Origin: Thiogranum longum | Lineage (GTDB): Bacteria; Pseudomonadota; Gammaproteobacteria; DSM-19610 | Length of the DNA: 64,000 bases | Assembly (NCBI RefSeq): GCF_004339085.1 | Contig: NZ_SMFX01000001.1 | Location: forward strand, 2,770,573-2,834,572 | Reading direction: 5' to 3' | Part shown: positions 32,346-59,647 of the stretch, piece after piece | Position numbering within the stretch: the first letter of the stretch is position 1 | Layout of the letters: each line of letters begins with the position of its first letter | The notes under the pieces: generated by a model | Seen by the model: only the letters and a program-made list of their open reading frames with translations | What the model was told of the DNA's origin: nothing | Databases searched by the model: none | Translations under genes and position numbers: made by a program

Positions 32346-33116
32346 ATGATACGAAGAATCTATAATGCTTATCTCTGGCATCGCAGTGAGTATTTTACGC
32401 TTTCTTTCCCCAAAAGCGGTAAAACTTGGATAAAAAACACTCTTGCAGACTACTATTCCCATTATTACGCTACTCATGGCCAAATTACATTCTCGCCACT
32501 CGTCAGAATAGGGAAAAAGAGACAGGTTCCCAGAATAATCTTTACCCACGCCATGCCGCGCTCGGCAAGCTTCAAGCAAACCAGGGAGATGATGGAGAAC
32601 CTTGCAAAAAAGTCTGTTATCCTTCACGTTCGCGATCCAAGAAATGTAGCCTTAACCTATTATTTTCAGGTTATAAAACGGGCAAACATAGCTGAGGCAG
32701 CAGAACTCAGTTTTCCTGAATTTCTCAGGCACCCTGTTATGGGTATAGATCGCATCATTCGCTTCATGAATGCCGGGTATGGATTACGTCACACATATAA
32801 AAAGTTTATGTTGACTCGGTACGAGGATTATCTGGCAAATACCCAACCTGAAATTGAACGTACTCTCAACTTTCTGGATACGCCGATTGACAGCAAAATC
32901 CTGGCCGGCTCGCTGAAGAATATTAGCGACACTACAAGACTGATAGAAAACGAACAGCTCCCAGGATTAGGGCCTCAATTAAACTCCTATACAGAAGATT
33001 CTGCCGTAGAGCAGAAGTGGGACCTTCCTAGCTACATGAACTATATCGGCAATAGTGACATAAAGTATCTCGATAAGTGCATGAAGCAGCTTAATCCGGA
33101 TTTTGGTTATAGTTAA
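32346..33116 (+). CDS. Sulfotransferase domain protein (1 of 5)
   Basis: A 256-residue PAPS-dependent sulfotransferase. The 5'-phosphosulfate loop is SFPKSGKTWIK (residues 20-30), close to the canonical PKSGTTW. The 3'-phosphate motif is HVRDPRNVALTYY. It probably moves sulfate from PAPS to a sugar hydroxyl in the cytoplasm before export. It is the first gene after the divergent promoter region, in clearly AT-richer DNA than the flanks. Acceptor unknown. Confidence 0.88.
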   Translation: MIRRIYNAYLWHRSEYFTLSFPKSGKTWIKNTLADYYSHYYATHGQITFSPLVRIGKKRQVPRIIFTHAMPRSASFKQTREMMENLAKKSVILHVRDPRNVALTYYFQVIKRANIAEAAELSFPEFLRHPVMGIDRIIRFMNAGYGLRHTYKKFMLTRYEDYLANTQPEIERTLNFLDTPIDSKILAGSLKNISDTTRLIENEQLPGLGPQLNSYTEDSAVEQKWDLPSYMNYIGNSDIKYLDKCMKQLNPDFGYS

Positions 33117-33167
33117 ACTCGAACTGTAAAAGATTTTCCAAACAGGCATTCAAGGTTAAATTTTACA

Positions 33168-33926
33168 ATGGAAAAATTCGTTATACTTTCCGATCGCCGC
33201 TCAGGCACAACACTACTTATTGATGCCCTGACCAGCCACCCAGATGTATCTTGCGTAAAACGGGCTTTTGGGCAAGAAAGGCGCATCAAAAATCCTACCC
33301 CCGACCACCATAGTGGCACGTTCTTTCTTTACCGCACAGCAAATCTGACAAGACGTCTTCAGTTTCATTTTCAGCGCGTGGATCTGATCAGGGGGTTCCT
33401 GAATGATGAGATTTTTGCTTCACCCCCTGACAAGAGCGTTAAAGGATTTCGACTAATCTATGCACAGGCAGAGCAATACCCGGAACTTGTAAAGCTGCTT
33501 CAGTCAGAACAACTTAAAGTGATACATCTCGTACGCGAAAATATCTTAAAAACCTATATTTCAACTATTACTGCACCTCTACACAAGATGCATCATCCTC
33601 GCACCGGGGACACAATAAAGATTGTAACGATCCGCCTCGACCCTGCTGAAACATTGGCGCAACTGGAGAAACGGGCTGGTCAGATTCAGCGCATGCGAAA
33701 TATATTTTCCAGCGCACCATACCTTGAAGTTAGCTACGAAAATTTTTCAGCCGACAGGGAGAAGGAATCAGAGCGTATACTTCCTTTTCTCGGGCTACAC
33801 AATGAGTCGCCACTACACTCTGACCTGGTAAAGATTAATCCTGACTCACTAAGAGATATCATCGAAAACTATTCAGAGATAGAAGACGCATTGAAGAATA
33901 CTGCATTCGAACATTTACTATCGTAA
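33168..33926 (+). CDS. Sulfotransferase, Stf0/NodH-like (2 of 5)
   Basis: A 252-residue sulfotransferase with the PAPS loop LSDRRSGTTLL near the N-terminus and the 3'-phosphate block IHLVRENILKTYIST. It starts at ATG 33168. It is a clear paralogue of the protein at 34632-35357: the same start (KF-IILS--RSG), GF-L-Y-QA block and C-terminal LVK-NP---I--NY signature. The pattern is that of sulfotransferases acting on carbohydrate or glycolipid acceptors. Confidence 0.86.
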   Translation: MEKFVILSDRRSGTTLLIDALTSHPDVSCVKRAFGQERRIKNPTPDHHSGTFFLYRTANLTRRLQFHFQRVDLIRGFLNDEIFASPPDKSVKGFRLIYAQAEQYPELVKLLQSEQLKVIHLVRENILKTYISTITAPLHKMHHPRTGDTIKIVTIRLDPAETLAQLEKRAGQIQRMRNIFSSAPYLEVSYENFSADREKESERILPFLGLHNESPLHSDLVKINPDSLRDIIENYSEIEDALKNTAFEHLLS

Positions 33927-33970
33927 ACCAATTTAGCCACACTAATAACCTGATTTATGGTCAACAAACC

Positions 33971-34654
33971 ATGGGACTTGGATTTGGAACAAAACTTCGG
34001 TATGTCAAAGACGCCATCTGCAGAGGTGCCAGGATAGGCAATTACTGGCACTGGGTCGACGCAAAAGACGCTCCCGAAAATATCGATATTGCCTCACTGG
34101 TATACCCCCTGCGCTACGATATTGTCATACGTAAGGAATTCTTCTGTCTTTATAGAGAATTCAGATCAGAGTATCACTCTGACTTCAATACATTCTTCAT
34201 CCGTGCGAAGGAACATATCTACTTCCAATGGTTTACCACGGTACTTGTTCACCGATTTCGCCCCGATCTCGTTTCTGCGCCAGGCGCACTGGAACACGCT
34301 TTCAAAGACCGCATAAAGCGATCTGCTATTTTATTCGACACGATAGAGCAGAACGACTTTGACACCCGTCATCCAATATTACCTTGCACTGGCGAAACCA
34401 TTCTTCCAACTGATAGCGGGCTCACAACAGGGGCAAAATACTATATGGGTGATGGTTGCCACCGGTTGGCATACCTTATGTCCATGGGATACGATAGCTT
34501 GCCAGGAAGATATGCCAGAATAAAGTGCTACAGGAAGTTTAAGCCGCTCGATAACACCAGCCTGATAAGCCCACATATAGAAGTAGACTGGAAAAGGTCA
34601 GGCCTCAATATACCTACAACGAATCAGACAAATGAAAAAGTTTATTATCCTTAG
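33971..34654 (+). CDS. Uncharacterised protein with ParB-like GDGxHR motif
   Basis: 227 residues, not recognised as a known family with certainty. No signal peptide or membrane helix is visible. The only striking motif is YYMGDGCHRLAYLMSMG at residues 158-173, resembling the G-x-H-R core of ParB/sulfiredoxin-fold proteins, followed by IKCYRKFKPLDNTSLI. It lies between two paralogous sulfotransferases and overlaps the second by 23 bases, so it probably works on the same glycan or donor. A phosphotransfer or nucleotide-binding role is possible for that fold, but this is inference. Confidence 0.7.
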   Translation: MGLGFGTKLRYVKDAICRGARIGNYWHWVDAKDAPENIDIASLVYPLRYDIVIRKEFFCLYREFRSEYHSDFNTFFIRAKEHIYFQWFTTVLVHRFRPDLVSAPGALEHAFKDRIKRSAILFDTIEQNDFDTRHPILPCTGETILPTDSGLTTGAKYYMGDGCHRLAYLMSMGYDSLPGRYARIKCYRKFKPLDNTSLISPHIEVDWKRSGLNIPTTNQTNEKVYYP

Positions 34655-35357
34655 CACACAGCGATCCGGCTCTGCATTTCTCGCCACATCCCTGGCCAGT
34701 CATCCGCTGATCACATGTCACAGAGAGATCTTCCTGCAAAAAAACCGGAACTGTGACTCATACCAGATGTATCGCAGCTCTTCTCTGGGAAGAAGAGTTA
34801 CAGATATATTTAACAGGGGGTCGCTTGTCGACAAATACCTGCAGGGAATCTTCTCAGCAGACAGTCATGTATCTGCCGCGGGTTTCAAGCTAATGTACAG
34901 CCAGGCCAAACGCTTTCCTGAAGTAACAAACTGGCTACTTGAAAATAACGTCCACATTATCCACCTGATAAGAAAAAACTACTTGCGCACGATTCTTTCT
35001 GCGTGCATTGCTCAGGCTCGCGGTATACATCACAGCAGCAAGACTCTTGAAAAAACAAAAGTTATAATTCACCCAGAGATGGCAATGCGTGAGATGAAAA
35101 AGATAAGCGATAATATCAATAGCTACTGCTCGCTTTTTAGAAATAATCCGTACATTGAAATCTCCTATGAATCATTTGTATCAGACAGGGATGCACAGGC
35201 GAAGCTTATTTTAGAGTTCCTCGCTATCAATAATTTTTCACGATTAACATCAGAGCTTGTAAAGAACAATCCCTACCCGATAAGTGAATTAATACAGAAC
35301 TATGAAGAAGTTTCAGATGCACTGCGGGGTACACAGTTTGATTCATTTCTTGACTAA
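34632..35357 (+). CDS. Sulfotransferase, Stf0/NodH-like (3 of 5)
   Basis: 241 residues with PAPS loop LSTQRSGSAFL and 3'-phosphate block IHLIRKNYLRTILS. It is paralogous over its full length to the protein at 33168-33926, suggesting an old local duplication with separation by the unknown gene. It starts at ATG 34632, overlapping the preceding gene. The two paralogues could sulfate different positions of one repeat unit. Confidence 0.85.
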   Translation: MKKFIILSTQRSGSAFLATSLASHPLITCHREIFLQKNRNCDSYQMYRSSSLGRRVTDIFNRGSLVDKYLQGIFSADSHVSAAGFKLMYSQAKRFPEVTNWLLENNVHIIHLIRKNYLRTILSACIAQARGIHHSSKTLEKTKVIIHPEMAMREMKKISDNINSYCSLFRNNPYIEISYESFVSDRDAQAKLILEFLAINNFSRLTSELVKNNPYPISELIQNYEEVSDALRGTQFDSFLD

Positions 35358-35500
35358 GCAATCACACACAAGCTGTATTTAGTATGTAATTTTAACCACT
35401 TATCACACATCCTGTGCAAAATGGCTCTATAGCAGTGGTTTGTAATAGAATATAAATCTCTCTTGTTAAAATTTGATCAGTTTATTTCGGGAAGTTAACT

Positions 35501-36364
35501 ATGGGCAACCAGTTTAGTTTCGCAGAGAAATGTTTCTCTCTATGTTGCAATAGAAATACTCAGGGATGGAATGCAGCTGCGAGCAATAACATTCCACAGC
35601 AAGAAACACAAACCAATAAAATGAAGGAATGGGAAAGCTACTGGGAGAGATTTGACTTACTAATACCCAATTTCAGAGATAAAATCGTTGTTGATTACGG
35701 ATGTGGTTTCGGTTACGACAGTTTGTATGCACTTGAGAATGGTGCCAAGCATGTATATTGCCTCGAAATATCAGAGAACCGGCTTACGTCATCGCAAAAG
35801 CTACATAGTTCACATGGATACGAAAATGCGACTTATATCGACAATACTGACATCAAAGATCTAATAAATAAAATTCCCGCACAGTCAGTCGATATTATTT
35901 TTTCACGTGATGTGATGGAACATGTCCCATCACCTATAGACGTTCTACATTCAATGTACTCAATCACCAACCCTGGCGGTGAAATATATATAGGGTTCTC
36001 TCCATTCTACAAAAGCCCATATGGACCGCACTTTGGAAGTAAGTGTAAGATACCGTGGATACATCTAATATTTTCAGAAAGCACCATACTTAGCGTCTTT
36101 AAAAATCTTTATGGCCTGTCAGGCTCAGTAGAAACTTACCAGGATATCGAAGGTTCTGGTGTTAACAAGCTCTCCTATTTTGAATACAAGTCAATGATTG
36201 ATAGCATTCCCTGGGAAACGGAAATTCAGCAGATAAACCGCTTCCCGAACAAGCCAATACTGATGTCAACATTAGAAATTTTTGTGAGTCTCATACCCTT
36301 TAAATCATTAAAGGAAATATTTATCGTCAACTCATATATAAAGTTCAAGATCCCGGAAACATAA
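35501..36364 (+). CDS. SAM-dependent methyltransferase
   Basis: A 287-residue class I methyltransferase. Motif I is VVDYGCGFGYDSLYAL, followed by the acidic motif II (CLEISE) and FSRDVMEHVPSPIDVLHSM, as in Methyltransf_11/31 families. In this setting it probably O-methylates a sugar or modifies a polymer end, which can also act as a chain terminator. It starts at ATG 35501, 143 bases after the sulfotransferase; that gap is AT-rich with no clear feature. Confidence 0.85.
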   Translation: MGNQFSFAEKCFSLCCNRNTQGWNAAASNNIPQQETQTNKMKEWESYWERFDLLIPNFRDKIVVDYGCGFGYDSLYALENGAKHVYCLEISENRLTSSQKLHSSHGYENATYIDNTDIKDLINKIPAQSVDIIFSRDVMEHVPSPIDVLHSMYSITNPGGEIYIGFSPFYKSPYGPHFGSKCKIPWIHLIFSESTILSVFKNLYGLSGSVETYQDIEGSGVNKLSYFEYKSMIDSIPWETEIQQINRFPNKPILMSTLEIFVSLIPFKSLKEIFIVNSYIKFKIPET

Positions 36365-36535
36365 TCTTCTTTACGCATCGATAAGAAAATCACTTATTTC
36401 TGAAAGACGACTTAGTTGATAATAATCTGTAGTGTATGGGGAGTCTGAATTACAAATGTGCGCGAAGCATGCCTCTCTATACTGATAATATTACATTATC
36501 AGTCAAAATATATTTTCAAATTCAGGAACAGAACA

Positions 36536-37909
36536 ATGACACAAAAAGATATTCAAGTCGGTATTGACCCAGGAAACCAAGGCGACGGAGATACTCTACG
36601 AGATGCTTTTATCAAAGCCCAGTCCAACTTTGATGAGCTTTACAAGGTCATTCCGGTTTCTGACACTACGCTTCCTCACGACGACCCAAGCGTAGAAGGC
36701 TCAATTGCAAAAGGGCTCCAGGATGCCGGAGCTGCTGGCGGCGGAACTGTTCTTGTAGCACCGGGAGAATACCAGTGCATAAGCAACACATTAACCATAC
36801 CCTTAAATGTAATTCTCAAAGGCTCAGGACGCCGGGCAACAACAATCAAATGTTTGCACCCAAATGATGGCATAGCCATGACTAATTCCTATTCAGGAAT
36901 CGAATCCCTAAAACTTGCCATGCCAAACTACAGTAATACTAACGGTGATGGCATTAAAGTAACCGAGAGTGCAATTCACCTGAGAGACTTATTGATCTCG
37001 GGGGGAGATATCACAACTTGGGCAATAAACCTGGATGGTGTAAATCTGGCCCGTATCGAGAATGTATTACTAGGCTTTCTGGGAAGCACACTCAAACCGG
37101 ACACGTTAACCGGAAATGGCATAATCTTCCAAAACACAAGGCAAACCGAGTTACCATTTAATTATGGCGACTCAAAACTATCAAGCATTGATATATTCCT
37201 TTTCTCCAATAACACAACAGGCATCAAACTGCTTGGTCCAGACGATACCGATCTTGTAATAAATAATATTCTCATGAGCAAGGTTGAGATTCATGGAGGC
37301 GCAGTAATCAAAGCTGGCACAACCGGCATTCACTTGAGAAATGCTCGCAGGAACACACTTCTTGGGTTTGACCTGGAAGGTCTTGAAACAGGAATAATTG
37401 AAGAGCACGGCGGCACAGGCTTTAATGTACCAACAAATAATAATTATTTTGGCGCGTATGTTTTAGGTGTCACTAATAGCTATATTGAAGCAGGCGAAGT
37501 CCGGGACCGCACATTTATTGGTTGTGATGGTGTTACACCAGCGACTATCGGCGACGCTGAAGCTGTGTTTCCCAGGTCTCTGTGGATTAATAACGGAACA
37601 CTTCAAATTGGGCAGAAGGGCGGGAGATTTCAGCTGGATGATGGCGGAAGTCTAAATGGCCTCCAGCTAGACGTCAGCAGTCAGACACCAACAATACGGC
37701 CTACCAGTACAGATACAGCCGCAAAGATTAGCATGGGACTACAGGACACTACAGGTGTTGAATGTATTCCTGGAATTATCTTGCCACCACAAAACAGGGT
37801 CGCGCCAAACCCAGTCGAAGGAATGCTGATTTATTACAATGCATCCGTAGTTGGTCCACAGCCTGGTTTATACCAATATCGTGCAGGCTCATGGGTGTTC
37901 ATAGCGTAA
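36536..37909 (+). CDS. Tail-spike-like right-handed beta-helix protein
   Basis: A 457-residue protein starting at ATG 36536 after an AGGAA site. Residues 1-45 contain a GDGDTLRDAFIKAQSNFDELY block typical of head-binding or oligomerisation parts of phage tail proteins. Residues about 60-330 look like a pectate-lyase-type parallel beta-helix (GGTVLVAPGEYQ, short Ile/Leu/Asn-rich rungs, NGIIFQN). The C-terminus (GMLIYYNASVVGPQPGLYQYRAGSWVFIA) resembles tail-fibre tips. No signal peptide is seen. It is out of place among biosynthetic genes; it could be a polysaccharide lyase or hydrolase acting on the cluster product, or a phage remnant. Confidence 0.75.
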   Translation: MTQKDIQVGIDPGNQGDGDTLRDAFIKAQSNFDELYKVIPVSDTTLPHDDPSVEGSIAKGLQDAGAAGGGTVLVAPGEYQCISNTLTIPLNVILKGSGRRATTIKCLHPNDGIAMTNSYSGIESLKLAMPNYSNTNGDGIKVTESAIHLRDLLISGGDITTWAINLDGVNLARIENVLLGFLGSTLKPDTLTGNGIIFQNTRQTELPFNYGDSKLSSIDIFLFSNNTTGIKLLGPDDTDLVINNILMSKVEIHGGAVIKAGTTGIHLRNARRNTLLGFDLEGLETGIIEEHGGTGFNVPTNNNYFGAYVLGVTNSYIEAGEVRDRTFIGCDGVTPATIGDAEAVFPRSLWINNGTLQIGQKGGRFQLDDGGSLNGLQLDVSSQTPTIRPTSTDTAAKISMGLQDTTGVECIPGIILPPQNRVAPNPVEGMLIYYNASVVGPQPGLYQYRAGSWVFIA

Positions 37910-37914
37910 AATAT

Positions 37915-39115: not shown

Positions 39116-40012
39116 TCAGCAGATCACTCCGATTCGCTCCATCAGTTTTCTGATTTCTCCATTAAGCACTGAAGCATCACATCTGTCTTTCCAATCATCT
39201 GCCACGCCAGAATCAATTTTCTTGTGTTTATGTATTTTCTCATCTCCAAGCCCCCACTCAAAATCATCTGTTACTGATTTGACTGGATCCAGCATACTGG
39301 GTTGTATATCTATCTGGAGCTTATTGCATAAGTCTTTCACAACAACCTCTGGATTACGCACCAGATCCTCAAAATGCACGACATGCTTTCTATCATCGCT
39401 TACTCCTGACAGATGCTTCTCAAAACAAGTATGCACTTCCTTCCAATATTCCAGCTGGGTGCGAGTTGTTATACCGAGTAGAGTCTGCACCTTGTATTTA
39501 AGAGCAAGGAAATAATATTTTAATAATGACAGCTCATTTCTGCGTTGTTTCATCTGCACTTTCTGACGATCAGTTCTCGATGCCATCACGCCCAGGGGAT
39601 GCCTGATCAACCAAATATAGAACGGCTTGATTTCCTCCAGCCTCTTTATATCATCACCCATTCGACCATAGCTGGGGCTTTTATCAACCAGTAATTTACC
39701 ACGATTCTCATGCCCGACTATTTCTCTATAAATATCAACAGTCTGCATTCCGCAAAATCTTGACTCTATAGAGCCTGTATCACTTTTCTCTCCCAGTTTT
39801 TCCATCAAAACGCACAGACTGCGTAACGCCATTGGATAGCTGTTTCTCCACTCCTCAAATGTTTTGTAGCGCAATAGATGTAATTCTGGTGGGGCGATAA
39901 TGCGTGAATGCGCACCAAGTATAACGCTGAGCAGCGTCGAGCCGGATCGTGCAGCACTGAGAACTATTATCCAACGTGAAGAAGTTCTTCCCATGTCTCT
40001 ATGATTAGTCAT
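39116..40012 (-). CDS. Sulfotransferase (4 of 5)
   Basis: A 298-residue sulfotransferase with PAPS loop VLSAARSGSTLL (residues 17-28) and 3'-phosphate block WLIRHPLGVMASR. The LLVDKSPSYGR segment is also typical. Its start overlaps the upstream hexapeptide transferase gene by 8 bases. It resembles the Sulfotransfer_3 group more than the pair at 33-35 kb, so it is not a recent copy of them. Confidence 0.88.
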   Translation of the reverse strand: MTNHRDMGRTSSRWIIVLSAARSGSTLLSVILGAHSRIIAPPELHLLRYKTFEEWRNSYPMALRSLCVLMEKLGEKSDTGSIESRFCGMQTVDIYREIVGHENRGKLLVDKSPSYGRMGDDIKRLEEIKPFYIWLIRHPLGVMASRTDRQKVQMKQRRNELSLLKYYFLALKYKVQTLLGITTRTQLEYWKEVHTCFEKHLSGVSDDRKHVVHFEDLVRNPEVVVKDLCNKLQIDIQPSMLDPVKSVTDDFEWGLGDEKIHKHKKIDSGVADDWKDRCDASVLNGEIRKLMERIGVIC

Positions 40013-40658: not shown

Positions 40659-41789
40659 TCAGGCTGATTCTGATGGCAGCATTTCTCTGTATACATCTTC
40701 CAGTTTCTTACAGACATCTTTGTTGTTAAATTCTTTTTCCACAAGTGCCCTACCATTCACTCCCATACTTCTGCTTTTTACCCTGTCACTGGACAGCGTA
40801 TACATAGCTTCTGTAAGTGCCTCCTGGTCTCCAACCTTAACCAGGAGGCCAGTGCCCCCATCACTCACCGTATCCGGGACCCCGCCTACACTCGTCGAAA
40901 CTACCGGCAAGCCTGCTTTCATTGCTTCCAATATAGTTATAGGGTGAAGCTCCCAGCTGGAGCTCAGAATAAAACAATCGCTATTAACAAGAAGCTCAGG
41001 GATATCTCTTCTTACTCCAAGAAACTTAACCTTGCCCTGAAGGCCCAATGCCTTAACTTGTTCTTCCACCTTTCCACGTAATGGCCCGTCTCCTACAAGG
41101 AGCAGTCGAGCATCAGGAACACGTTCTATCAACTCACAAAATGATCTGATCAACAACGCATGATCTTTCTGAGGATAAAATCGCCCAACGCTTATGAAAT
41201 TATATTTATCCTTCTCTTCTGTTTTATTCAAGGATGCGTCATTGAAGCTAATCCCGTTTGGTATCAGTACAATCTTTTTCTTTGTTATATGGATACGCTC
41301 CAGGAATTGATACTGGAACCTGCATATTGCAATCGCCTTGTCACAGTATCGATATAGCATGGAAATAACATTCCATACCTTATACATGTGCGACTTTCCT
41401 GGTAGTATTCGCGATGGAACAATACCAAATCCATGGAAGTGCATAAGCAAAGGAATACCAAGGTCTTTCTTGGCCAAAAGCCCTACCAAGTTTGCAAGAT
41501 CAAGATGACAGTGAAGAAGATCTGGTGGCATTTCGCGAATTAGTCTTATTATTTCCTTTTTATTTAGCAGCGACCTTAAACTCAGTGGTTTCCGGGAGAG
41601 TTTAAGAAGTGTCACACCTGTAGCAATGTACTCTGGCTCAAGCACTCCGCCTTCACCACCAAAGGCAACGACATGCTCAAACTCCTGATGATCGAATTCT
41701 CGCAACAATGCCAGGAGGTTTGTTTCTGCGCCTCCTGCACCAAGCGAGGTCAGCACATGCATAATTCGTGGCCTTGCCTGCATACTCAC
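40659..41789 (-). CDS. GT4-family glycosyltransferase
   Basis: A 376-residue GT-B enzyme. It starts IMHVLTSLGAGGAETNLLAL and has the donor site SVGRFYPQKDHALLI and the E-x7-E block WELHPITILEAMKAGLPVVS. The GTG at 41789 overlaps the upstream stop (GTGA), with an ATG at 41783 as alternative. It probably adds one sugar of the repeat unit; donor unknown. Confidence 0.92.
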   Translation of the reverse strand: MSMQARPRIMHVLTSLGAGGAETNLLALLREFDHQEFEHVVAFGGEGGVLEPEYIATGVTLLKLSRKPLSLRSLLNKKEIIRLIREMPPDLLHCHLDLANLVGLLAKKDLGIPLLMHFHGFGIVPSRILPGKSHMYKVWNVISMLYRYCDKAIAICRFQYQFLERIHITKKKIVLIPNGISFNDASLNKTEEKDKYNFISVGRFYPQKDHALLIRSFCELIERVPDARLLLVGDGPLRGKVEEQVKALGLQGKVKFLGVRRDIPELLVNSDCFILSSSWELHPITILEAMKAGLPVVSTSVGGVPDTVSDGGTGLLVKVGDQEALTEAMYTLSSDRVKSRSMGVNGRALVEKEFNNKDVCKKLEDVYREMLPSESA

Positions 41790-42904
41790 TTTAAAAGTCC
41801 AGCCATAAGCGAGAGGTACTTTTCACCTAGCACGTCTATCCGGTGATGACTTGAATAATATTCAGAGCAATTTTCACTCATTCTCGTATATAGCGCGTTA
41901 TCGTTATCCAGGCAAGCCAGATTCCTGACCATTTCTTTAAAGTCACATGCGACCATACCAAGATCATTACTCCTGATCAGGCCATCAGGATCAAAATACG
42001 ACGCTACAGGAACTCCTTTTTGCCATGCCTGAAGAAATGTATTCGGGAATCCTTCTTTAGGATCGGATGTGTTAACAAACATTTTCGCTTCATCAAAATA
42101 AACACCAACCTGACTAAATGGTACAAACCCCTTGAACGTTACGTTAGACATTTTTTTTGCCTTGGCACGAATACGTTCAAATAACGCCTGCTCACCTGAT
42201 GCAGCGCCTCCAACTATCACGAATTCCTGGCCTGGCAATTGTTCAGCCAAATCAAGGAATATGTCCGGACGCTTCCAGCTTCGCATGGTACTGACCCACA
42301 GGTTATATCTACCTCTCACATTGCAATTACCGGATTTTTCTATTACCTCACTCCACCATGCATTTGGAATAACTGTAGCGTCCATTCCGTAGTTATCTTT
42401 CAGCAACTGCCGTTGAGTATGAGTTTGCGCAACTATGAGATCTGCGCGCCTCAATCCGTAGTTATATAAGTATTTGTCCCTTCTGCTGTTTATTATAAGT
42501 CCTCCCGGGTCGAAATCCGTATCCGAACCAGAAGCAAATATATATTTTTTTCCATACTTCCTGCAAAACAATGCAAGCAGGCCAGTACTCATGGAAGCGC
42601 AACGCTGGTAGTAGACATCAGCATCCGCCTTCCTTAGTGCATTCCATATACTGATCCAGCGTGGATAGACAAATCGGACGAAAGGGACACCATCCTGTAA
42701 ATGAAACGTTTTCAATACACGAATTCCATGTAACTCCTGCTCATCCTCTTGCCCACAATCCAGAGTCACCATTGAGACTCTGTTGCCTTTAGATGCCAGA
42801 TATTTGGCTAACATTACCATTTGTACTTCGGCCCCACCTACTCTGGCTTCTTGAGTGCCTGCAAGTATTGGGTATCCTGTTAGCGCGAGAAAGCAAATGT
42901 TCAT
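41786..42904 (-). CDS. GT4-family glycosyltransferase
   Basis: A 372-residue GT-B enzyme beginning MNICFLALTGYP, with GGAEVQMVMLAKYLASKGN and the donor-domain block SDPKEGFPNTFLQAWQKGVPVA. ATG 42904 is preferred; a longer frame to 42964 would run into the wzy-like gene. It is 7 bases downstream of that gene and coupled to the next by GTGA overlap. Confidence 0.9.
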   Translation of the reverse strand: MNICFLALTGYPILAGTQEARVGGAEVQMVMLAKYLASKGNRVSMVTLDCGQEDEQELHGIRVLKTFHLQDGVPFVRFVYPRWISIWNALRKADADVYYQRCASMSTGLLALFCRKYGKKYIFASGSDTDFDPGGLIINSRRDKYLYNYGLRRADLIVAQTHTQRQLLKDNYGMDATVIPNAWWSEVIEKSGNCNVRGRYNLWVSTMRSWKRPDIFLDLAEQLPGQEFVIVGGAASGEQALFERIRAKAKKMSNVTFKGFVPFSQVGVYFDEAKMFVNTSDPKEGFPNTFLQAWQKGVPVASYFDPDGLIRSNDLGMVACDFKEMVRNLACLDNDNALYTRMSENCSEYYSSHHRIDVLGEKYLSLMAGLLK

Positions 42905-42911
42905 ACCAGCC

Positions 42912-44132
42912 TCACAACATAAAACCGAAGCCCAAAAGTATCCAGTAAGGCAAAACGAAATCAAAGCTATGCGTCAGCCCATCCAACAATATCGTGATAA
43001 GCATCGCAGCAATACCTGTATTGTATATAACAATACCCTCGGTGTTTTTTTTGGATGGCTTTAATCTTTTGAAAACACCACGTAGGCCGACCCACATCAA
43101 TGTCATAAATGCAATAAAACCTACTGCACCTGATTCCACAAGGACCTGAAAATATGTATTATGCGATTGAAGGTGTAGAGACTTATCCTTCCAACCTACG
43201 CCTCGCCCAAGTACGGGGCTTTCAGCCCACGTTTCAAAGCTGGATATAATCAGAGGTATCCTGGCTTGGGCAGAGATGTCCTCGTCCATATCCGTAAAAC
43301 GCCCTGCGACCTCTTCGCCAAGCCCGATAAATGAGGCAACACCCACCAGGATAGCTCCTGTTAACGTTATGCCAAGAACTGCCCGCATTGACATGCCCCT
43401 GAGCTTATACTGGATAAACAGGAATCCAACCAACCAGCCAGCCAAAGCACCCCTGGAAAGGCTGCTCAACAGACCGAGAAACAGTAAGCTTCCCGCAATA
43501 AACCATATGATTTTTCCAAACCGGGTCATGGCCTGATAAAACAGTACCTGAGCAGCGATGACCGATATGGCAAAATAGATCCCCATCATTGTTGAATGAC
43601 GCATTAAGCCGACGGCTCTACCCCCTTCATTAAAGAGACTCCCGTAGGAACCAAATATATTTAACCCCATCCACCCACTCATGACAGCCCCCATATTGAT
43701 GAGCCCCCATAAAGCTACGCTCAACATAAAGTATCTATATGTGCTCTCTTTTACGGGCGCCAATGATACAAGCATCGCTAATAACAGCATGCCCACGTCG
43801 CCACGATAATTTGCGAAAGGAATCCCGTTCAAGGTTCCTGATATATATACAATGAACATGTACAGCAGAATAAGCGACCAATAAAAAAACGGGAGTCTTT
43901 GTCTTTCTCTTATCCTTATTGCCACAAGTATTGCCACAAGAACAGGTGTAAGAAACGCCCTAAACAGACCAATCTGACCAATCCCTGTTATTTGCAAAAA
44001 TGCGCCCATCGAGGCAAACAAAAAGAATATGAAACCTGGTAATATTTCGGCCCTGTAGGAGGCATAGCCAATCATCAAGACGATAATAAGAATGAATACC
44101 GGGAATATTGGGTTCTGAAGATGCTCAAGCAT
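42912..44132 (-). CDS. O-antigen ligase/polymerase family (Wzy-like) membrane protein
   Basis: A 406-residue polytopic membrane protein of the Wzy_C family. The signature region RARIPLIISSFETWAESPVLGRGVGWKDK is followed by HNTYFQVLVESGAVGF, the conserved His motif in the large periplasmic loop. Placed with a flippase and glycosyltransferases, a polymerase role is more likely than ligase, but the two cannot be separated by eye. Confidence 0.88.
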   Translation of the reverse strand: MLEHLQNPIFPVFILIIVLMIGYASYRAEILPGFIFFLFASMGAFLQITGIGQIGLFRAFLTPVLVAILVAIRIRERQRLPFFYWSLILLYMFIVYISGTLNGIPFANYRGDVGMLLLAMLVSLAPVKESTYRYFMLSVALWGLINMGAVMSGWMGLNIFGSYGSLFNEGGRAVGLMRHSTMMGIYFAISVIAAQVLFYQAMTRFGKIIWFIAGSLLFLGLLSSLSRGALAGWLVGFLFIQYKLRGMSMRAVLGITLTGAILVGVASFIGLGEEVAGRFTDMDEDISAQARIPLIISSFETWAESPVLGRGVGWKDKSLHLQSHNTYFQVLVESGAVGFIAFMTLMWVGLRGVFKRLKPSKKNTEGIVIYNTGIAAMLITILLDGLTHSFDFVLPYWILLGFGFML

Positions 44133-47264: not shown

Positions 47265-47278
47265 AACACAACTACTCG

Positions 47279-48070: not shown

Positions 48071-48074
48071 ACAA

Positions 48075-52684: not shown

Positions 52685-52698
52685 GATCTATCAACCGG

Positions 52699-53655
52699 TC
52701 AGGGTTTACGTGGTTTATCGTATGTGAAATATTCCAGTGAAGTTTTGGCTATATCTGAAATATCTTCTATCTGCCGCCTTGTCAGCCTTTCGATCTGGTT
52801 CCGGTTTACATCAGCCTTGAAATGGTCCATGAATTTCTCTATCGGGTACCAGATGAGCCCTTCCTGGTCCTGTTCATATGTGTAGGTATGCCCGCCATCT
52901 TTCCCGACTGTCTTTTTATTTTCGAGTCTCACCTTCCTGATCTGCCCGACATCCAGCCCGGCATAGCCGAAAATCTGTTCAAACACATCTCTCGGCGACT
53001 CCAACAGATCCTCGAACCTGAAAATGTGATAATTGGGTATTTTTTTCGAGTCGGCAATAATGCGCTGACACCCTCTTTCATAATCCTGTGCTATTTTCGC
53101 AAGTGACACGCCACGCCGGATATGTCCTTCGCACATCGCATAACCATTCCTGACCAGGGCGATAAAGGTTGCATCGGGATACATTCGTGCGAGGTCGTTT
53201 GACAAACAAACAAGGCCGCCAAGATTTTTACTCAATAAACGTGACCGGGCAATCTCCTCATCGGTATACCTGACCCCTTCCGACTTGTAACAATTCTGTG
53301 TTGGTCCTCGCGCCTTGAGTTTCTCATCAAACAGCACTTTATCAATGCACTGCATTGCGCGCTTTGAAAGGGCTTTACGGTCCTCCCATAAATCCAGCGA
53401 GAACACATCCTGTCTTTGTGCCGCAAGCACCGGCAAGTAATTCCAGAGTTTTGATAAAACGACTGACGCCGGTTCCTTGAACCTTCGCGGAAACCCCTTG
53501 CCTTTGAAGACCTCCTGTATTTCTCCACGTGGCGAGCAGACTTCCGGATGTGAACGCAGCAGGTTCAGTACGATATTCGTACCGCCGTGCTGAAATCCCA
53601 GAATAAAAATCGGCCTCTTGTTTAACACGCGTGTTTTCCAGCCATTCCAGCGCAA
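52699..53655 (-). CDS. Sulfotransferase (5 of 5)
   Basis: A 318-residue sulfotransferase with a less usual PAPS loop, LGFQHGGTNIVLNLL (residues 19-33), in place of the PRSGTT form, and 3'-phosphate block FIALVRNGYAMCEG. The HGGT loop occurs in some Sulfotransfer_3 proteins, so it may be active. The start is uncertain: TTG 53655 or GTG 53628, both just before the KRPIFILG strand. It is first in the long minus-strand operon running to 37915. Confidence 0.82.
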   Translation of the reverse strand: MRWNGWKTRVLNKRPIFILGFQHGGTNIVLNLLRSHPEVCSPRGEIQEVFKGKGFPRRFKEPASVVLSKLWNYLPVLAAQRQDVFSLDLWEDRKALSKRAMQCIDKVLFDEKLKARGPTQNCYKSEGVRYTDEEIARSRLLSKNLGGLVCLSNDLARMYPDATFIALVRNGYAMCEGHIRRGVSLAKIAQDYERGCQRIIADSKKIPNYHIFRFEDLLESPRDVFEQIFGYAGLDVGQIRKVRLENKKTVGKDGGHTYTYEQDQEGLIWYPIEKFMDHFKADVNRNQIERLTRRQIEDISDIAKTSLEYFTYDKPRKP

Positions 53656-54001
53656 TCATCACCATTTCCGGAGTGACACATTGCACACAATTGTTTGTTA
53701 TTTACATCAACAATCCGCGGATGTCGGTAGTTTTTACACAATTTAACACATCAAATCGCACTTTGGCACTCCGGCCACCCTTCACCCATCTTAAAATTAT
53801 GAGAAAAATCTGTAGTTTCATGTAACTACCATCATAACCGTCAAAATAATAGCCGCAAATTCTTACAGTTATAATGCCAAGCAGAACCTTTGCCGTGACA
53901 ATTTTTACTGTATAATGCGCCGATATTACAAATACAAGTATAAGAATCTGTAAGCGTACAAACTCCCGGATGAAGTGCGCCTGCACAAAGGCATCAGTCG
54001 G
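53656..54001. other. Intergenic region with candidate plus-strand promoter
   Basis: About 345 AT-rich bases between the divergent sulfotransferase and the Tat-lipoprotein gene. A TATAAT box at 53911-53916, with TTGCCG at 53890-53895 (15-base spacer), could drive the plus-strand gene. Minus-strand ORFs here lack family features and are not called. Confidence 0.5.
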
Positions 54002-54469: not shown

Positions 54470-54487
54470 CCGGTATCAACAACATGA

Positions 54488-55534
54488 TCAACGGTACTGC
54501 CTGTTGTAATAATCACGATATGCCCCATCACGCACTCGCGCCCACCATTCCTTGTTGTCCAGATACCACAGGATGGTTTCCTCAATACCCTTCTCGAACG
54601 TATAAAGAGGCTCCCAATCAAGTTCGCGCTTCATTTTACCGGCATCTATGGCATAACGCCGGTCATGTCCGAGGCGATCCTTTATATATGTAATAAGATT
54701 GCTCTTCGGCGCATTACCAGGCCTTAACTCATCAAGATGCTCACACACAAGCTTGACGATATCGATATTCGCCCATTCATTACAGCCGCCTATATTATAG
54801 GTTTCTCCCAAACAACCTTTATCAAGCACCACATCGATACCCCGGCAATGATCTTCCACATGCAACCAGTCACGAATATTCATGCCATCACCATAGATTG
54901 GCAGGGGTTTGCCTTCGAGAGCATTGATAATTACCAGCGGGATCAGCTTTTCCGGAAACTGGTAGGGGCCATAGTTATTTGAGCAATTGGTTGTCAGCAC
55001 CGGCAGGTCATAGGTGTGGTAATAAGCGCGCGCAAGGTGGTCTGATGCCGCCTTTGATGCGGAGTAGGGACTATTCGGTGCAAAAGGCGTTTGTTCTGTA
55101 AATGCCGGATCCTCGGGACCAAGCGAGCCATATACCTCATCAGTTGAAACATGCAGGAAGCGGCATCCTGTTTTATCTTTGTCCCAGAACTTTCGAGCCG
55201 CCTCCAAAAGCGTGAATGTTCCATGGATATTTGTTTTTATAAATACCTCGGGACCGAGGATCGATCGATCCACATGTGATTCCGCTGCAAAATTAACAAC
55301 TGTATCAATTTTTTCATCTTCAAAAACTTTTTCAATACAGTCAACATCACAGACATTTCCGTGAATAAAACGATAATTGGGGTTCGACTCAATATCCTTA
55401 AGACTTTCAAGGTTACCCGCATAGGTCAGCGCATCTAGATTAACCACCCGATCACCCGGATGATTCGCCAACCAGTAACGAACAAAGTTGGAGCCTATGA
55501 ACCCTGCACCACCGGTAATTAACACATTTCTCAT
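54488..55534 (-). CDS. rfbB: dTDP-glucose 4,6-dehydratase
   Basis: A 348-residue SDR enzyme, second step of dTDP-rhamnose synthesis. Motifs: [14 protein letters not shown] for [13 protein letters not shown] catalytic segment and [11 protein letters not shown] with the Tyr/Lys pair. It is last in the rfbA-C-D-B operon. Confidence 0.98.
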
Positions 55535-55561
55535 TCTTATCGACCTTTTACGACAGCAACG

Positions 55562-56434
55562 TCACGCCTGCGAGCCACTCTGCTGCTTCAGCATCCTGTA
55601 CAGACTTTCCCGCCAGTGAGGAATTTGATAATCCAGCATACCTCGTATTTTCACCTTACTCATTACAGAATAAGCCGGCCGCTTCGCCGGCAACGGGAAA
55701 TCTTCAGTCGGAATCGGGCGAATAGTTTCCGCCACGACAGGAAAACCCGCACGTTTTGCGCCAGCGACTATTTCCATTGCAAAGTCATACCATGAAGCAA
55801 CACCTTCATTACTGAACTGGTAAGTCCCCGTTGCTTCATTTTTAATTAACACTCGCATGGCTTTGACAATATCACTGGTCCATGAGGGTGCACCGATCTG
55901 GTCATCGACCACTCTCAGCTCTTCCCGTTCCGCAGCCAGGCGTAAAATGGTTTTGACAAAATTATGGCCGTGCGCACCGTAGACCCAGGCTGTCCTGAGA
56001 ATCAGCGCCTCGGGCAGCACTTCGCGTATGGCCTGCTCTCCTTCCAGTTTGGACTGGCCGTAAACACCGAGCGGGTTGGTTGCATCACTTTCTTTATAGG
56101 GCCGCGATTGCTCGCCACCGAAAATGAAATCGGTGGATACATGCAAAAGGTGACCACCACTACGTTTCACACCTTCTGCCACAGCACGAGCAGCATCGCG
56201 ATTAACGGTAAAGGCGAGCTCCCGTTCTTCCTCGGCTTTATCAACCTGCGTATAAGCGGCGCAATTAATCACCCAGTCAGCCGAATAGTCAGCTATCGCC
56301 TCTGCCACCTGTGCAGGCTGTGAAAAATCCAGCTCATCCCGGCCGATTGAAATAAAGGCCTCGCCATCTGCCTGCAGCGCCAACACCGCTTCCCTGCCAA
56401 GCTGGCCTTTAGCACCCGTTACCAGGATCGTCAC
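55562..56434 (-). CDS. rfbD: dTDP-4-dehydrorhamnose reductase
   Basis: A 290-residue reductase making dTDP-L-rhamnose. Motifs: GAKGQLGREAV and YGQSKLEGEQAI. The GTG start overlaps the rfbC stop by 4 bases (GTGA), indicating coupling. Confidence 0.97.
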   Translation of the reverse strand: MTILVTGAKGQLGREAVLALQADGEAFISIGRDELDFSQPAQVAEAIADYSADWVINCAAYTQVDKAEEERELAFTVNRDAARAVAEGVKRSGGHLLHVSTDFIFGGEQSRPYKESDATNPLGVYGQSKLEGEQAIREVLPEALILRTAWVYGAHGHNFVKTILRLAAEREELRVVDDQIGAPSWTSDIVKAMRVLIKNEATGTYQFSNEGVASWYDFAMEIVAGAKRAGFPVVAETIRPIPTEDFPLPAKRPAYSVMSKVKIRGMLDYQIPHWRESLYRMLKQQSGSQA

Positions 56435-56991
56435 AACGCATCCTCGTAAACCGGCAACTTGCGACCCATATCACTGAGCAGCCGATTATTGGCATCCTTG
56501 TCAGAAATCCTGAAATCACGTCCCGGCCAGTCTATGCCGATTGCAGAGTCGTCCCAGCGAATACCATGCTCAAATTCAGGCGCATAATAATCTGTACACT
56601 TGTATAAAAAGTCTGCGGTCTCACTCAACACACAAAATCCATGCGCAAATCCTGGCGGAACATAAAGCTGGTGCTGGTTTTTCTCACTCAGCTCTGCACC
56701 GACCCACCGACCGAAGGTCGGCGAATCCTGCCGAATATCAACCGCCACATCAAACACTGATCCAGTCGCTACACGCACCAGCTTGCCCTGCGGCTGCTGG
56801 AGCTGGTAGTGCAGGCCACGCAGCACTCCCTGACTTGATCGGGAGTGGTTATCCTGAACAAAGTCCACATCCAGACCAGCCTCCGCATACTTTCTTCTAT
56901 GCCAGCTCTCCATAAAGAATCCGCGACTGTCCCCAAATACGTCTGGCTCGATCAACAGCACCTCGGGGATCTCCATTGGGCTGATCTTCAT
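56431..56991 (-). CDS. rfbC: dTDP-4-dehydrorhamnose 3,5-epimerase
   Basis: A 186-residue cupin epimerase with [19 protein letters not shown] and the [14 protein letters not shown]-like block (here [16 protein letters not shown]). ATG 56991 overlaps the rfbA stop as ATGA; a TTG at 56997 is the only longer start. Confidence 0.97.
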
Positions 56992-57869
56992 GCGCAATGC
57001 CCATCTTCTTCAAGAATGTCCAGCAGATAACGTCCGTAACCATTCTTCGCCAGCGGTTGCGCCAGCTTCTCCAACTCGTCAGAAGATATATAACCCATCC
57101 GGTAAGCAATCTCTTCCACGCAACAGACCTTCAGCCCCTGCCGCTGCTCAACTGTTTCTATAAAATTCGCGGCCTGCAATAGTGACTCATGTGTCCCGGT
57201 ATCAAGCCAGGCTGTACCACGACCCAGCTTTTCAACCTGCAGACTCCCGTCCTGCAGGTAGCGGGAATTAATATCCGTGATTTCCAGCTCACCGCGCGGA
57301 GAAGGCTTGAGGTTGGCAGCAATATCCACTACGCGATTATCGTAGAAATATAACCCCGTCACTGCATAATGAGAACGTGGCTTTTCCGGTTTTTCTTCTA
57401 TCGATAAAGCCTGGCCACTTTCATCAAACTCAACCACGCCATAGCGTTCCGGATCACGCACACGGTAAGCAAACACTGTAGCGCCTGATTCACGCTCTGC
57501 CGCACGGCGCAAATTGGTGCCCATACCGTGACCGTAAAAAATGTTATCGCCAAGCACCAGGCAGCAGGATGAAGTACCAATAAACTCTTTGCCAATGGTG
57601 AAGGCCTGCGCCAGCCCTTCCGGCTTTGGTTGCACAGCGTACTGGATATCCAGACCAAACTGGTTTCCGTCACCCAGCAGTCTCTGGAATGCCTCACTGT
57701 CTTCCGGCGTGGTAATGATCAGCGCTTCCCGAATACCCGCCAACATCAAGGTTGACAGTGGGTAGTAGATCATCGGCTTGTCGTACACCGGCATCAGTTG
57801 TTTACTGACCGAACGCGTCAGGGGATACAAGCGCGTCCCGGAACCGCCGGCCAGGATAATACCTTTCAT
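56988..57869 (-). CDS. rfbA: Glucose-1-phosphate thymidylyltransferase
   Basis: A 293-residue nucleotidyltransferase, first step of the dTDP-rhamnose pathway. It has the [11 protein letters not shown] signature, KPMIYYPLS and VLGDNIFYG. It is first in the rfbA-C-D-B set and 23 bases downstream of the sulfate-activation gene, so these may share a transcript. Confidence 0.98.
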
Positions 57870-57892
57870 ATTATTTATACTCAGCAGGATTA

Positions 57893-59647
57893 TTAACCAT
57901 CAGATTGCACACCCTGCGTATCCAGGTAACCTTCTCTTAATAAATAGAGATAGATATCCTGTGCGGCTTCCATAGGCGTCAAACCTTCGGTATTGACACG
58001 CAGTTCGGGCTGCTCCGGTATTTCGTAGGGATCGCTGATTCCTGTGAACTCAGGAATTTCACCACGTCGCGCCTTGGCATACAGTCCTTTGCGGTCACGC
58101 GCCTCGCAAGCTTCCAGTGAGGTTGCCACATGGATTTCAATAAAGTCACCATGCGGTTCGATCATCTCCCGGACAGAACGGCGCATTTGCGTATAAGGTG
58201 CAATCGGCGCACAAATTGCAATGCCACGATTCTTGGTGATTTCACTGGCCACGTAACCTATCCGGTTGACGTTCAGGTAACGGTGTTCCTTCGAGAAGCC
58301 CAGCTCGCTGGAAAGATGCTGACGTACAACATCACCATCCAGCAGTGTGACCGGTCGCTCGCCAGCCTCCAGCATCTTGGCATAAATGATTTTTGCCAGC
58401 GTGGATTTTCCTGACCCGGACAGACCGGTAAAGAACAGGGTAAAACCCTGCTTGCTGCGAGGCGGGTAAGCCTTGCGCAACTCGCGCACCACCTCAGGAT
58501 AGCTGAACCAGGACGGTATCTCCTCGCCCTTGCTGAGGTCGGCCTTTAGCTGCGCATCGGTATAATCAGTGGCTTCCAGTCCTTCGCGCTCGATGACTGA
58601 CGCAGGCAGAAAACGATCTTTTGACGGAACATAGCGCATCGCTTCCACGGGAACAATTTCGATATCAAGTTCTTTACTGAATTTATTGACAAGTTCACGT
58701 GACTGCTCAGGTTGGTAGAATGGCTGGTCCTTGCCATCTGCATCTGCCGGCGGATAGGCGTGCCTTGGCCCGATAATCATGTGAGAACAGCCATAGTTCT
58801 GACTGACGATTGCATGCCACAAGGCTTCACGCGGCCCCGCCATTCGCATGGCCAGTGGCAACAGTGACAACATCGCCAGGTTTTGCGGGAAGTGCTGCCG
58901 AATTGCCTGGTAACAGCGCACACGGGCGTAATAGTGCAAATCACCTGGCTTGGTTATACCTACGGTGGGGTGGAGCAGGATGTGCCCCTGTATATCCTTT
59001 GCCGCCTGCAAGGTAATATCCCGCTGCAGCCGGTGCATCGGCTTCGAAGTCTGGAAAGATACAACGCGGCGCCAGCCTTTCTTCCTGAACAAGGCGCGCA
59101 GTTCCTGCGGCGTATCCCAGAAGCTCTCGAAATCGTGGTGTACGGGTGACTGGATACCTTCGATCTGCCCACTTATATATACGGGCTTTACAACTTCGTT
59201 CAGGTATCGCACTCCCGGATGTGCATCCGAAGTGGTGCCATAAACCTTTTCCGCTTCACGCTTCTTGTCCGGCTGCCAGATATCCTCAACGGTCAACACT
59301 GCGGGCATAAAACCCTCGCCATCACGCAGTGCGATTTTTGTTCCTTTTTCCAGCTTGCCTGCAAAGGCCTGGTCGACATCAAGCACAATCGGTACCGGCC
59401 AGACTGTGCCATCCGCCAGCCGCACACGATCAAGGACTGATTCGTAATCGGCCTGGTTCATGAACCCGGCCAGTGGGGAGAACGCACCGTTCATCAGTAA
59501 TTCGAGGTCGCAGACCTGTCGCTGACTAAGGGTAAGTGACAGATATTGCTGAGATTCTGTCTTGAGGGCTTCCGCCTTTTCCGGGTCGACCAATAGATTG
59601 ACTAACTGGCCGCCGTGCGGTTGTACAAAAAACTCTTTCGTTGCCAT
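57893..59647 (-). CDS. Bifunctional ATP sulfurylase/APS kinase (Sat-CysC fusion)
   Basis: 584 residues. The N-terminal part (about 1-395) is an ATP sulfurylase. The C-terminal part (about 400-584) is an APS kinase with Walker [10 protein letters not shown] (408-416), [11 protein letters not shown] and [17 protein letters not shown]. Together they would make PAPS, the sulfate donor for the five sulfotransferases upstream. The sulfurylase motifs are unusual: [10 protein letters not shown] at 199-208 in place of QxRNPxHxxH (second His is Gln208), and GPRHAY at 293-298 in place of GRDHAG. The kinase half looks normal. The sulfurylase half may be a divergent active subclass or weakened, in which case APS must come from elsewhere. 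Confidence 0.92.

Follow-up and report, generated by a model that had tools for sequence, protein, structure and literature searches.

Structures of sulfated capsules have been determined for Vibrio sp. KMM 8419 (PMC11641403) and Cobetia marina KMM 1449 (PMC11766843), and the text of the Vibrio paper calls genes for 3′-phosphoadenosine-5′-phosphosulfate (PAPS) combined with those for sulfotransferases a hallmark of pathways that make sulfated polysaccharides. In Synechocystis 6803, a sulfated product has been demonstrated for the synechan (xss) cluster, which contains two sulfotransferases and eight glycosyltransferases; according to the main text of the 2021 paper on it (PMC8205485), the authors were not aware of sulfotransferase genes in the exopolysaccharide (EPS) clusters of any other bacterium, nor of any other bacterial sulfated polysaccharide. 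Going by their main texts, this statement is contradicted by Pontiella, for which a sulfated glycosaminoglycan-like exopolymer was detected in 2020 (PMC7356697), and by the two marine capsules of 2024-2025. The synechan paper was the only one returned by a literature search that combined exosortase with sulfotransferase and exopolysaccharide, and its main text does not mention an exosortase; among the matches listed none joined exosortase with APS-kinase terms or sulfur-oxidizing with sulfation terms. On the enzyme side, the title of Gay et al. 2009 gives the absence of ATP-sulfurylase (Sat) activity for the two-domain adenosine-5′-phosphosulfate (APS) kinase of Thiobacillus denitrificans (PDB 3CR8), a host described as a chemolithoautotroph. 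A 2026 paper (PMC13213808) identifies 3CR8 and 23VK as the APS kinases of T. denitrificans and Entamoeba histolytica. The Sat-like domain of the Entamoeba protein is likewise described as being without that activity, in its case on grounds that do not involve the QTRNPxHxxH motif, and such an inactive domain is proposed to stabilize a hexamer or to boost kinase activity. Here we analyzed a 64,000-nucleotide stretch of the Thiogranum longum genome (hereafter the window; positions 2770573-2834572 of a single-contig genome of 2,916,906 bases, G000:C1), which carries a polysaccharide locus framed by the exosortase XrtD, with a left frame at 20082-31951, an interior at 32346-53655 and a right frame at 54488-59647. 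This locus very probably decorates a secreted sugar polymer with sulfate, and we consider it likely that it is a Wzx/Wzy locus for a sulfated EPS in which the protein encoded at 57893-59647 acts as an APS kinase only, with APS supplied by a separate enzyme. The genes directly concerned with sulfation are the following.

57893..59647, minus strand: two-domain APS kinase with a degenerate ATP-sulfurylase domain ("Sat-CysC"); PRK05537, 834.8 bits against a cut-off of 669
32346..33116, plus strand: sulfotransferase 1 (Sulfotransfer_1, SULT-like); PF00685, 40.5 bits against a cut-off of 22; loop FPKSGKTW
33168..33926, plus strand: sulfotransferase 2; PF13469, 44.1 bits against a cut-off of 27; loop DRRSGTTL
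34632..35357, plus strand: sulfotransferase 3; PF13469, 41.3 bits against a cut-off of 27; loop TQRSGSAF
39116..40012, minus strand: sulfotransferase 4; PF13469, 74.6 bits against a cut-off of 27; loop AARSGSTL
52699..53655, minus strand: sulfotransferase 5, with a diverged PAPS pocket and doubtful activity; PF13469, 53.3 bits against a cut-off of 27; FQHGGTNI

An original prediction, made from the sequence of the locus, had taken 57893-59647 for a PAPS-forming Sat-CysC fusion. Its kinase half is indeed intact, with the P-loop GLSGSGKST, and the kinase P-loop is undamaged in all fusions aligned; the Sat half, however, has lost the QTRNPxHxxH motif and reads GPRH where GRDH is expected. The reference for these motifs was the set of solved yeast-type and Penicillium ATP sulfurylases, reading QTRNPMHRAH and GRDH, and these two canonical motifs are common to 20/20 canonical fusions, while the genome's separate Sat reads QTRNPMHRSH and GRDH. 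With both motifs missing from its Sat half, the "Sat-CysC" is unlikely to be a complete PAPS synthase; that half is predicted to be inactive, a remnant that is probably structural. A set of 75 fusion open reading frames (ORFs) was reduced to 48 rows by dropping exact duplicates and to 47 distinct fusions by dropping a second copy of the window protein; 20 of these have canonical motifs and 27, the window protein included, are variant. One variant (G106) was lost to the gap filter, leaving 46 fusions in a tree built on the kinase domain alone, in which a single clade (support 100/98) takes in 25 of the 26 fusions without the motifs. The closest solved kinase domains to that of the window protein are 3CR8 and 23VK. 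The motif of 3CR8 is the altered QARQPMHRAQ, and when added to the tree this protein is sister to the 25 variants plus three canonical fusions (83/90); since it thus lies outside the variant clade, with three canonical fusions between and modest support, the Sat losses may be independent. As in the T. denitrificans type (TdAPSK), the window protein joins a Sat-like domain with lost motifs to an intact APS kinase domain, and the stabilizing or activating role proposed for the inactive domain is plausible for its Sat half as well. Genome G212 carries two Sat-CysC copies (C4:741-2483 and C48:108-1844), 90 and 88% identical to the window protein and both near contig starts.

The alternative is that the fusion is a normal bifunctional PAPS synthase, whose altered Sat site still makes APS from sulfate and ATP so that no outside source is needed. 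It can draw on the full-length match to the bifunctional family PRK05537 (NCBIfam), above the cut-off, on the Sat half of the window protein, which keeps much of its fold and the first histidine of the motif, and on the position of the gene, which adjoins sugar-donor genes like a self-contained module. We nevertheless regard it as unlikely. The motif arginine, asparagine and second histidine and the GRD triplet are replaced, in ways that vary among the variant fusions (the second histidine is kept in 8/26), and the Sat half diverges faster, being more diverged at equal kinase identity in the variant class (0.43/0.53/0.68 in variants vs 0.63/0.66/0.73 in canonical fusions). Moreover, the nearest solved kinase domain belongs to the T. 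denitrificans protein, reported by its title to be without ATP-sulfurylase activity.

All 13 full-length fusions found at XrtD loci are variant (those of the window, G003, G005, G018, G140, G254, G350, G100, G112, G155, G174, L100 and L104); this count excludes L109, where the fusion is a fragment at a contig end with GSTKPMHRVHRD in its Sat part. Beyond the 13, one variant fusion has adjoining PrsRKT genes and two have a PrsT-like TPR protein. No XrtD or Prs marker was found beside any of the 15 canonical fusions with fetched neighbourhoods, and no XrtD locus was seen to hold any of the 20 canonical fusions; for those of G229 and G384, XrtD is present on another contig. The marker count, 16-1-15, was compiled from several scans and ignores relatedness, and two of its markers are the PrsT-like TPR proteins, which may be unspecific. 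It leaves aside the variants on short or split contigs (G284, G333, G212, G007, G009, G016, G019, G101 and G106), the variant G245 and five canonical fusions whose neighbourhoods were not fetched.

The gene at 57893-59647 encodes the only convincing APS kinase of the 2.92 Mb genome. The only other match, over 49 positions (E 2e-4) and one bit above the family cut-off, resembles a general P-loop match, and weak matches of this kind were seen in most genomes of the APS kinase scan. A separate canonical ATP sulfurylase is encoded at 2869966-2871117, about 40 kb from the fusion, and the genome also encodes a RuBisCO large subunit with this sulfurylase nearby (NCBI taxonomy places Thiogranum within Ectothiorhodospiraceae). 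That the fusion serves assimilatory sulfate reduction, its location at the locus being accidental, was rejected and is in our view highly improbable. Sat-CysC fusions do occur in many Gammaproteobacteria without an XrtD match, and the 20 canonical fusions did not turn up at XrtD loci, both of which would fit such a role. However, a search for the PAPS/APS reductase family PF01507 at E 1e-3 gave no match in the Thiogranum genome, with 14/14 control genomes positive, and a match above the cut-off in 0/20 family genomes, so that assimilation fails to explain PAPS here; in addition, the architecture running from XrtD to the fusion recurs and the Sat motif is lost. Convincing APS kinases are present in 10 of the 20 family genomes, in one only as a contig-end piece and in one as a broken frame. 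The PF13469 matches number 12, 9, 10, 2, 14, 22, 20, 5, 4 and 4 in the ten genomes with a kinase and 7, 5, 4, 3, 3, 8, 1, 3, 17 and 3 in the ten without, a trend towards more matches where a kinase is present, with exceptions, among genomes many of which are incomplete.

The region of the canonical ATP sulfurylase (L047:5910-12001) holds an adjoining divergent molybdopterin oxidoreductase, an iron-sulfur protein and a frame without a family match. This group presumably resembles the sulfite oxidase SoeABC, its family matches being general ones.

Five sulfotransferase-fold genes had been predicted in one polysaccharide cluster, and all five lie there with the predicted starts, each above a Pfam sulfotransferase cut-off. 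Their PAPS loops are recognizable in four. Read from the sequence, sulfotransferases 1-4 have a K/RSG(T/S/K) loop followed by a later arginine and then a serine or threonine, while in sulfotransferase 5 HGGTN replaces RSGT(T/S) and the downstream VRNGYAMCEG is without the serine expected at the 3′-phosphate site; PAPS-pocket residues are thus missing in one of the five (52699), not in most. In searches of the PDB, the closest solved relative of sulfotransferase 4 was the CurM sulfotransferase (4gbm, E 2e-25), with an Ols structure at E 4e-23; the same protein scores 31 bits against NoeE, far below the cut-off of 500. Sulfotransferase 1, matched by PF00685 only, hit SULT structures weakly (E 0.003), sulfotransferase 2 matched a solved NodH-like protein at chance level only (E 0.045) and sulfotransferase 5 gave a weak match only (E 0.066); a structure model of the last, made without an alignment, had a pLDDT of 36 and was not used. 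Genome-wide, PF13469 gave 12 matches in 11 distinct frames, four of them inside the window, so that further sulfotransferase loci exist elsewhere in the genome. For this reason the kinase cannot be exclusive to the locus, and the description of it as the locus's own sulfate-donor enzyme had to be dropped: it must also serve those other loci.

These affinities bear on the explanation that the sulfotransferases act on other acceptors, such as a lipid, the lipopolysaccharide core, a secreted protein or a small molecule, and that the EPS itself carries no sulfate. The likeness of sulfotransferase 4 to the polyketide sulfotransferases CurM and Ols, the weak resemblance of sulfotransferase 1 to small-molecule SULTs and the presence of sulfotransferases at other loci would all suit it. 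We judge it quite unlikely nonetheless, since the genes lie among Wzx, Wzy and glycosyltransferase genes both here and at XrtD loci of other families, and since the sulfotransferase set varies with the cassette, as it does for substrate-specific decoration enzymes.

Several sulfotransferase genes elsewhere deserve record. A PF13469 protein of about 1840 aa is encoded at L045:2892-8414 (G000:C1, about 2134.9-2140.4 kb), between genes that by eye are apparent flagellin, FliD, FlgL and FlgK genes, and PF13469 frames of 1521-2488 aa are present in six same-genus genomes; a flagellin-linked sulfation or glycosylation is possible. At L044:4648-5649 a VPLPA-CTERM protein is followed (5741-10365) by two TPR proteins of 573-575 aa, one with a sulfotransferase domain. 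Several relatives have arrays of sulfotransferase frames of about 530-850 aa.

Whether the gene set recurs was assessed in one draw of 369 Gammaproteobacteria, with thresholds of E 1e-100 for Sat-CysC and E 1e-60 for XrtD. Sat-CysC was found in 65 genomes, XrtD in 44 and both in 17 (p 3e-4); in 10 of the 17 the two genes are at most 30 kb apart on one contig and strand. Sulfotransferases were sought in up to 20 kb upstream of XrtD. They were present at 8/11 XrtD loci with a fusion on the same contig (18 genes; this set includes the window and G005 from outside the draw) vs 1/20 XrtD loci from genomes that gave no fusion match (20 of 27 genomes fetched), p 1.7e-4, and without the window the figures are 7/10 vs 1/20 (p 4e-4). 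The sole positive among the XrtD-only loci, G366, encodes a stand-alone APS kinase within its stretch; grouping the loci by the presence of an APS kinase of any kind in the stretch gives 9/12 vs 0/19 (p 1e-5). For fusions in genomes without an XrtD match, sulfotransferases lay within about 10 kb on each side in 3/20 (20 of 48 fetched). The combination of XrtD, Sat-CysC and sulfotransferases, for which a comparative search had been proposed, therefore does recur in other families. In G003, G005 and G018, XrtD and Sat-CysC are 18-19 kb apart on one contig around differing interiors, which hold three sulfotransferases in G003, at least one in G005 and none found in G018; in G003 the gene order of the right frame differs and the contig begins at WecA.

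The sulfotransferase calls were checked in several ways. Of ten genes from other families, eight beside fusions and two of G366, nine were above the Pfam cut-off; the counted genes without Pfam confirmation are G140 13529-14581 (unscanned), the second gene of G005 (2e-4) and the one below the cut-off. Our own profile was weak on a true case, that of G254 (6e-4; Pfam 8.6e-9), and broadening the profile left the set of positive loci unchanged. When 113 proteins (200-480 aa) taken from 10 of the 20 XrtD-only stretches were scanned with Pfam, there was no sulfotransferase among the 25 commonest of 127 families, a listing of families with at least four members that a sulfotransferase family matched by up to 4/113 could escape. 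Among 80 named XrtD loci, 12 had sulfotransferases by our own profile, four of them on the same contigs as G003, G005, G174 and G366; Sat-CysC lies near XrtD in three of the 12 (L100, L104 and L109, one of them cut by the contig end), and sulfotransferases were present in 3/4 named loci with a kinase vs 9/76 others (p 0.01).

A number of observations weigh against our interpretation. The loss of motifs predicts inactivity of the Sat half and cannot prove it, and much of the Sat fold is kept. Counted by family the comparison is weaker, 4/6 vs 1/15 (p 0.011), with families f82 and f137 on both sides. Where fusion and XrtD are on different contigs, sulfotransferases were found in 0/7, several of these stretches being short; these seven genomes, with two canonical fusions, three variant and two not read, were counted apart. 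The fusion is carried by the sister locus in G018 and by the loci of G100 and G112, and no sulfotransferase was found at any of the three; L145, one of the named XrtD loci, carries an APS kinase of the stand-alone kind and has no sulfotransferase, and 9/12 of the named sulfotransferase-positive XrtD loci have no fusion in the fetched stretch, G003, G005 and G174 among these nine having one further off. Within the family, G014 (17 sulfotransferase matches, 86% complete) and G002 (5, 99% complete) are without a convincing APS kinase. Lastly, since the variant fusions form one clade, a single event may lie behind their link to the exosortase, with p values that overstate independence.

The gene set, the motif loss, the lone convincing APS kinase, the lack of a reductase match and the recurrent association, all of them read from sequence, are consistent with the following scheme for a sulfated EPS. 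Repeat units containing fucose and/or rhamnose would be built on a lipid carrier, starting at a WecA-like step, and would receive sulfate in the cytoplasm from PAPS-dependent sulfotransferases, at most four or five of them, with acetyl and acyl groups also added; the decorated units would then be flipped by Wzx, polymerized by Wzy and exported. PAPS for the sulfotransferases would come from the kinase half of 57893-59647. If the Sat half is inactive, its APS must come from the separate canonical Sat some 40 kb away or perhaps, in this presumed sulfur oxidizer, from sulfite oxidation, and since no PAPS/APS reductase was found, PAPS would be committed to sulfation, here and at the genome's other sulfotransferase loci. 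PrsK/PrsR and XrtD point to co-regulation of the polymer with VPLPA-CTERM surface proteins. What we infer beyond the sequence is that the product is sulfated, that the Sat half is dead, where the APS comes from and that there is this coupling to exosortase substrates.

The remaining genes of the locus are as follows.

20082..21437, minus strand: PrsR, sigma-54 response regulator of the exosortase/EPS system; TIGR02915, 713 bits against a cut-off of 502.6
21403..23604, minus strand: PrsK histidine kinase; TIGR02916, 772 bits against a cut-off of 300
23785..26424, minus strand: PrsT TPR lipoprotein; TIGR02917, 381 bits against a cut-off of 312
26573..27526, minus strand: Fcl-like epimerase (GDP-fucose synthase), the name Fcl presumed from pathway knowledge; PF01370, 237 bits
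27530..28633, minus strand: Gmd, GDP-mannose 4,6-dehydratase; PF16363, 531 bits
28661..30325, minus strand: WecA-like initiating sugar-phosphate transferase; PF00953, and TIGR02380 at 160 bits, below its cut-off of 326
30371..31951, minus strand: exosortase XrtD with a C-terminal EpsI domain; TIGR04152, 590 bits against a cut-off of 400
33971..34654, plus strand: unknown protein of 227 aa with a GDGCHR motif, between sulfotransferases 2 and 3; no Pfam or NCBIfam match
35501..36364, plus strand: S-adenosylmethionine-dependent methyltransferase; PF13847, 54.9 bits
37915..39036, minus strand: membrane O-acyltransferase; PF01757, 89 bits
40005..40592, minus strand: hexapeptide acetyltransferase, CysE/EpsC-like; Pfam match, below NCBIfam cut-offs
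40659..42964, minus strand: two GT4 glycosyltransferases; family matches
42912..44132, minus strand: Wzy/O-antigen-ligase-like polymerase (Wzy_C); PF04932, 54.4 bits
44204..45511, minus strand: Wzx-type flippase; PF13440, 50.8 bits
45504..47264, minus strand: GH123-like protein; PF13320, 156 bits
47279..52684, minus strand: GT2, PssE/PssD-like pair, nucleotidyltransferase-like, kinase-like and two GT4 genes; family matches
54488..57869, minus strand: RmlB, RmlD, RmlC and RmlA (dTDP-rhamnose pathway); family matches

The left frame thus runs PrsR, PrsK, PrsT, Fcl, Gmd, WecA-like transferase, XrtD and the right frame RmlB, RmlD, RmlC, RmlA, Sat-CysC, around an interior of Wzx, Wzy, glycosyltransferases, acyl- and acetyltransferases, the GH123-like protein and the five sulfotransferase-family genes. 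The Wzx/Wzy-type genes and the many glycosyltransferases that had been predicted are borne out, with flippase, polymerase and initiating transferase all present as in Wzx/Wzy-dependent systems and five GT4/GT2 genes plus the PssE/PssD-like pair; so are the donor pathways for fucose (26573-28633) and rhamnose (54488-57869). An exosortase, predicted for the interval 32346-59647, is present and of type XrtD, specific for VPLPA-CTERM (TIGR04152); it and the fucose genes lie just outside that interval. The GC content is 57-61% over window positions 1-20000, 48-56% at 20000-32000, 41-49% over 32000-56000 and about 60% over 60000-64000. Portions of the block 47279-52684 were seen again in G009, G018, G016 and G212. 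Five VPLPA-CTERM target proteins in the genome are above the cut-off, and with no more than one mismatch allowed, a simple -24/-12 sigma-54 scan gave no site in the 400 bases nearest to their starts. In 54 kb near the chromosome end, the N-termini of ORFs of at least 150 aa were read by eye.

Three further proteins of the cassette lack a clear assignment. For the 227-aa protein, a PDB search gave no convincing match and a structure model made without an alignment was unusable (pLDDT 33); its gene overlaps that of sulfotransferase 3, and its GDGCHR motif we take to be reminiscent of ParB/sulfiredoxin-like DGxHR loops. The gene at 36458-37909 encodes a 483-aa protein without a family match and that at 53975-54469 an Ig-like protein with a lipoprotein-like start. 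Their homologues adjoin each other next to RmlB in G016:C35, which suggests that the two belong together as secreted partners of the cassette.

These data add recurrent exosortase-framed candidate loci for sulfated EPS in several gammaproteobacterial families, recognizable by a simple genomic signature; they suggest what an unusual type of enzyme, the APS kinase whose sulfurylase domain is inactive, may be for, and propose in testable form that surface-polymer sulfation is linked to sulfur oxidation. A wider proposal, which we put forward tentatively and hold to be clearly less probable than not, is that the dead-Sat APS kinase clade evolved at exosortase EPS loci to tap cellular APS, in sulfur oxidizers possibly APS from sulfite, with the T. 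denitrificans enzyme as a studied member or a parallel. If true, the sulfur of the polymer would come from the energy pathway and not from freshly activated sulfate. The locus tag of the T. denitrificans two-domain kinase is presumably Tbd_0210, for which a literature search gave no confirmation. If the tag is right, that kinase may lie close to the exosortase-system region, the tags of PrsT/PrsR/PrsK being Tbd_0195-0198 (PMC1569441, Table 1).

Set against the described systems, the locus shares with the capsule clusters of Vibrio KMM 8419 and Cobetia KMM 1449 the clustering of genes for PAPS, dTDP-rhamnose, glycosyltransferases and sulfotransferases at a single site, there in marine bacteria. 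Those clusters use CysD/CysN(C)-type sulfurylases and ABC export, with no exosortase mentioned in the main texts of the two papers, whereas the window has Wzx/Wzy, XrtD with PrsKRT and a two-domain APS kinase with a degenerate Sat half. With synechan it shares a Wzx/Wzy EPS cluster with sulfotransferases; synechan differs in being cyanobacterial and in having other regulators, and the main text of PMC8205485 does not mention PAPS. With Pontiella it shares a PF13469 sulfotransferase in a putative glycosyltransferase-rich EPS cluster; Pontiella differs in belonging to the Kiritimatiellae, and the main text of PMC7356697 mentions no exosortase, PEP-CTERM or PAPS. Given the sulfated capsules and EPS published for these four, the original description of such a product as rare does not stand. 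The frame itself, with PrsR, PrsK, PrsT, an exosortase with EpsI and polysaccharide genes, is that of the PEP-CTERM/EpsH EPS loci (Haft 2006, PMC1569441), from which the window differs in its XrtD type and in dedicated sulfation genes, no sulfotransferase being mentioned in the main text of that paper. With the T. denitrificans kinase (3CR8), the window protein shares the order of a Sat-like and then a CysC domain and the altered QTRNPxHxxH motif, although, at modest support, the former falls outside the clade of the XrtD loci. Sulfated capsules with PAPS genes are therefore already known, and the exosortase frame together with the degenerate-Sat kinase is a new variation on them.

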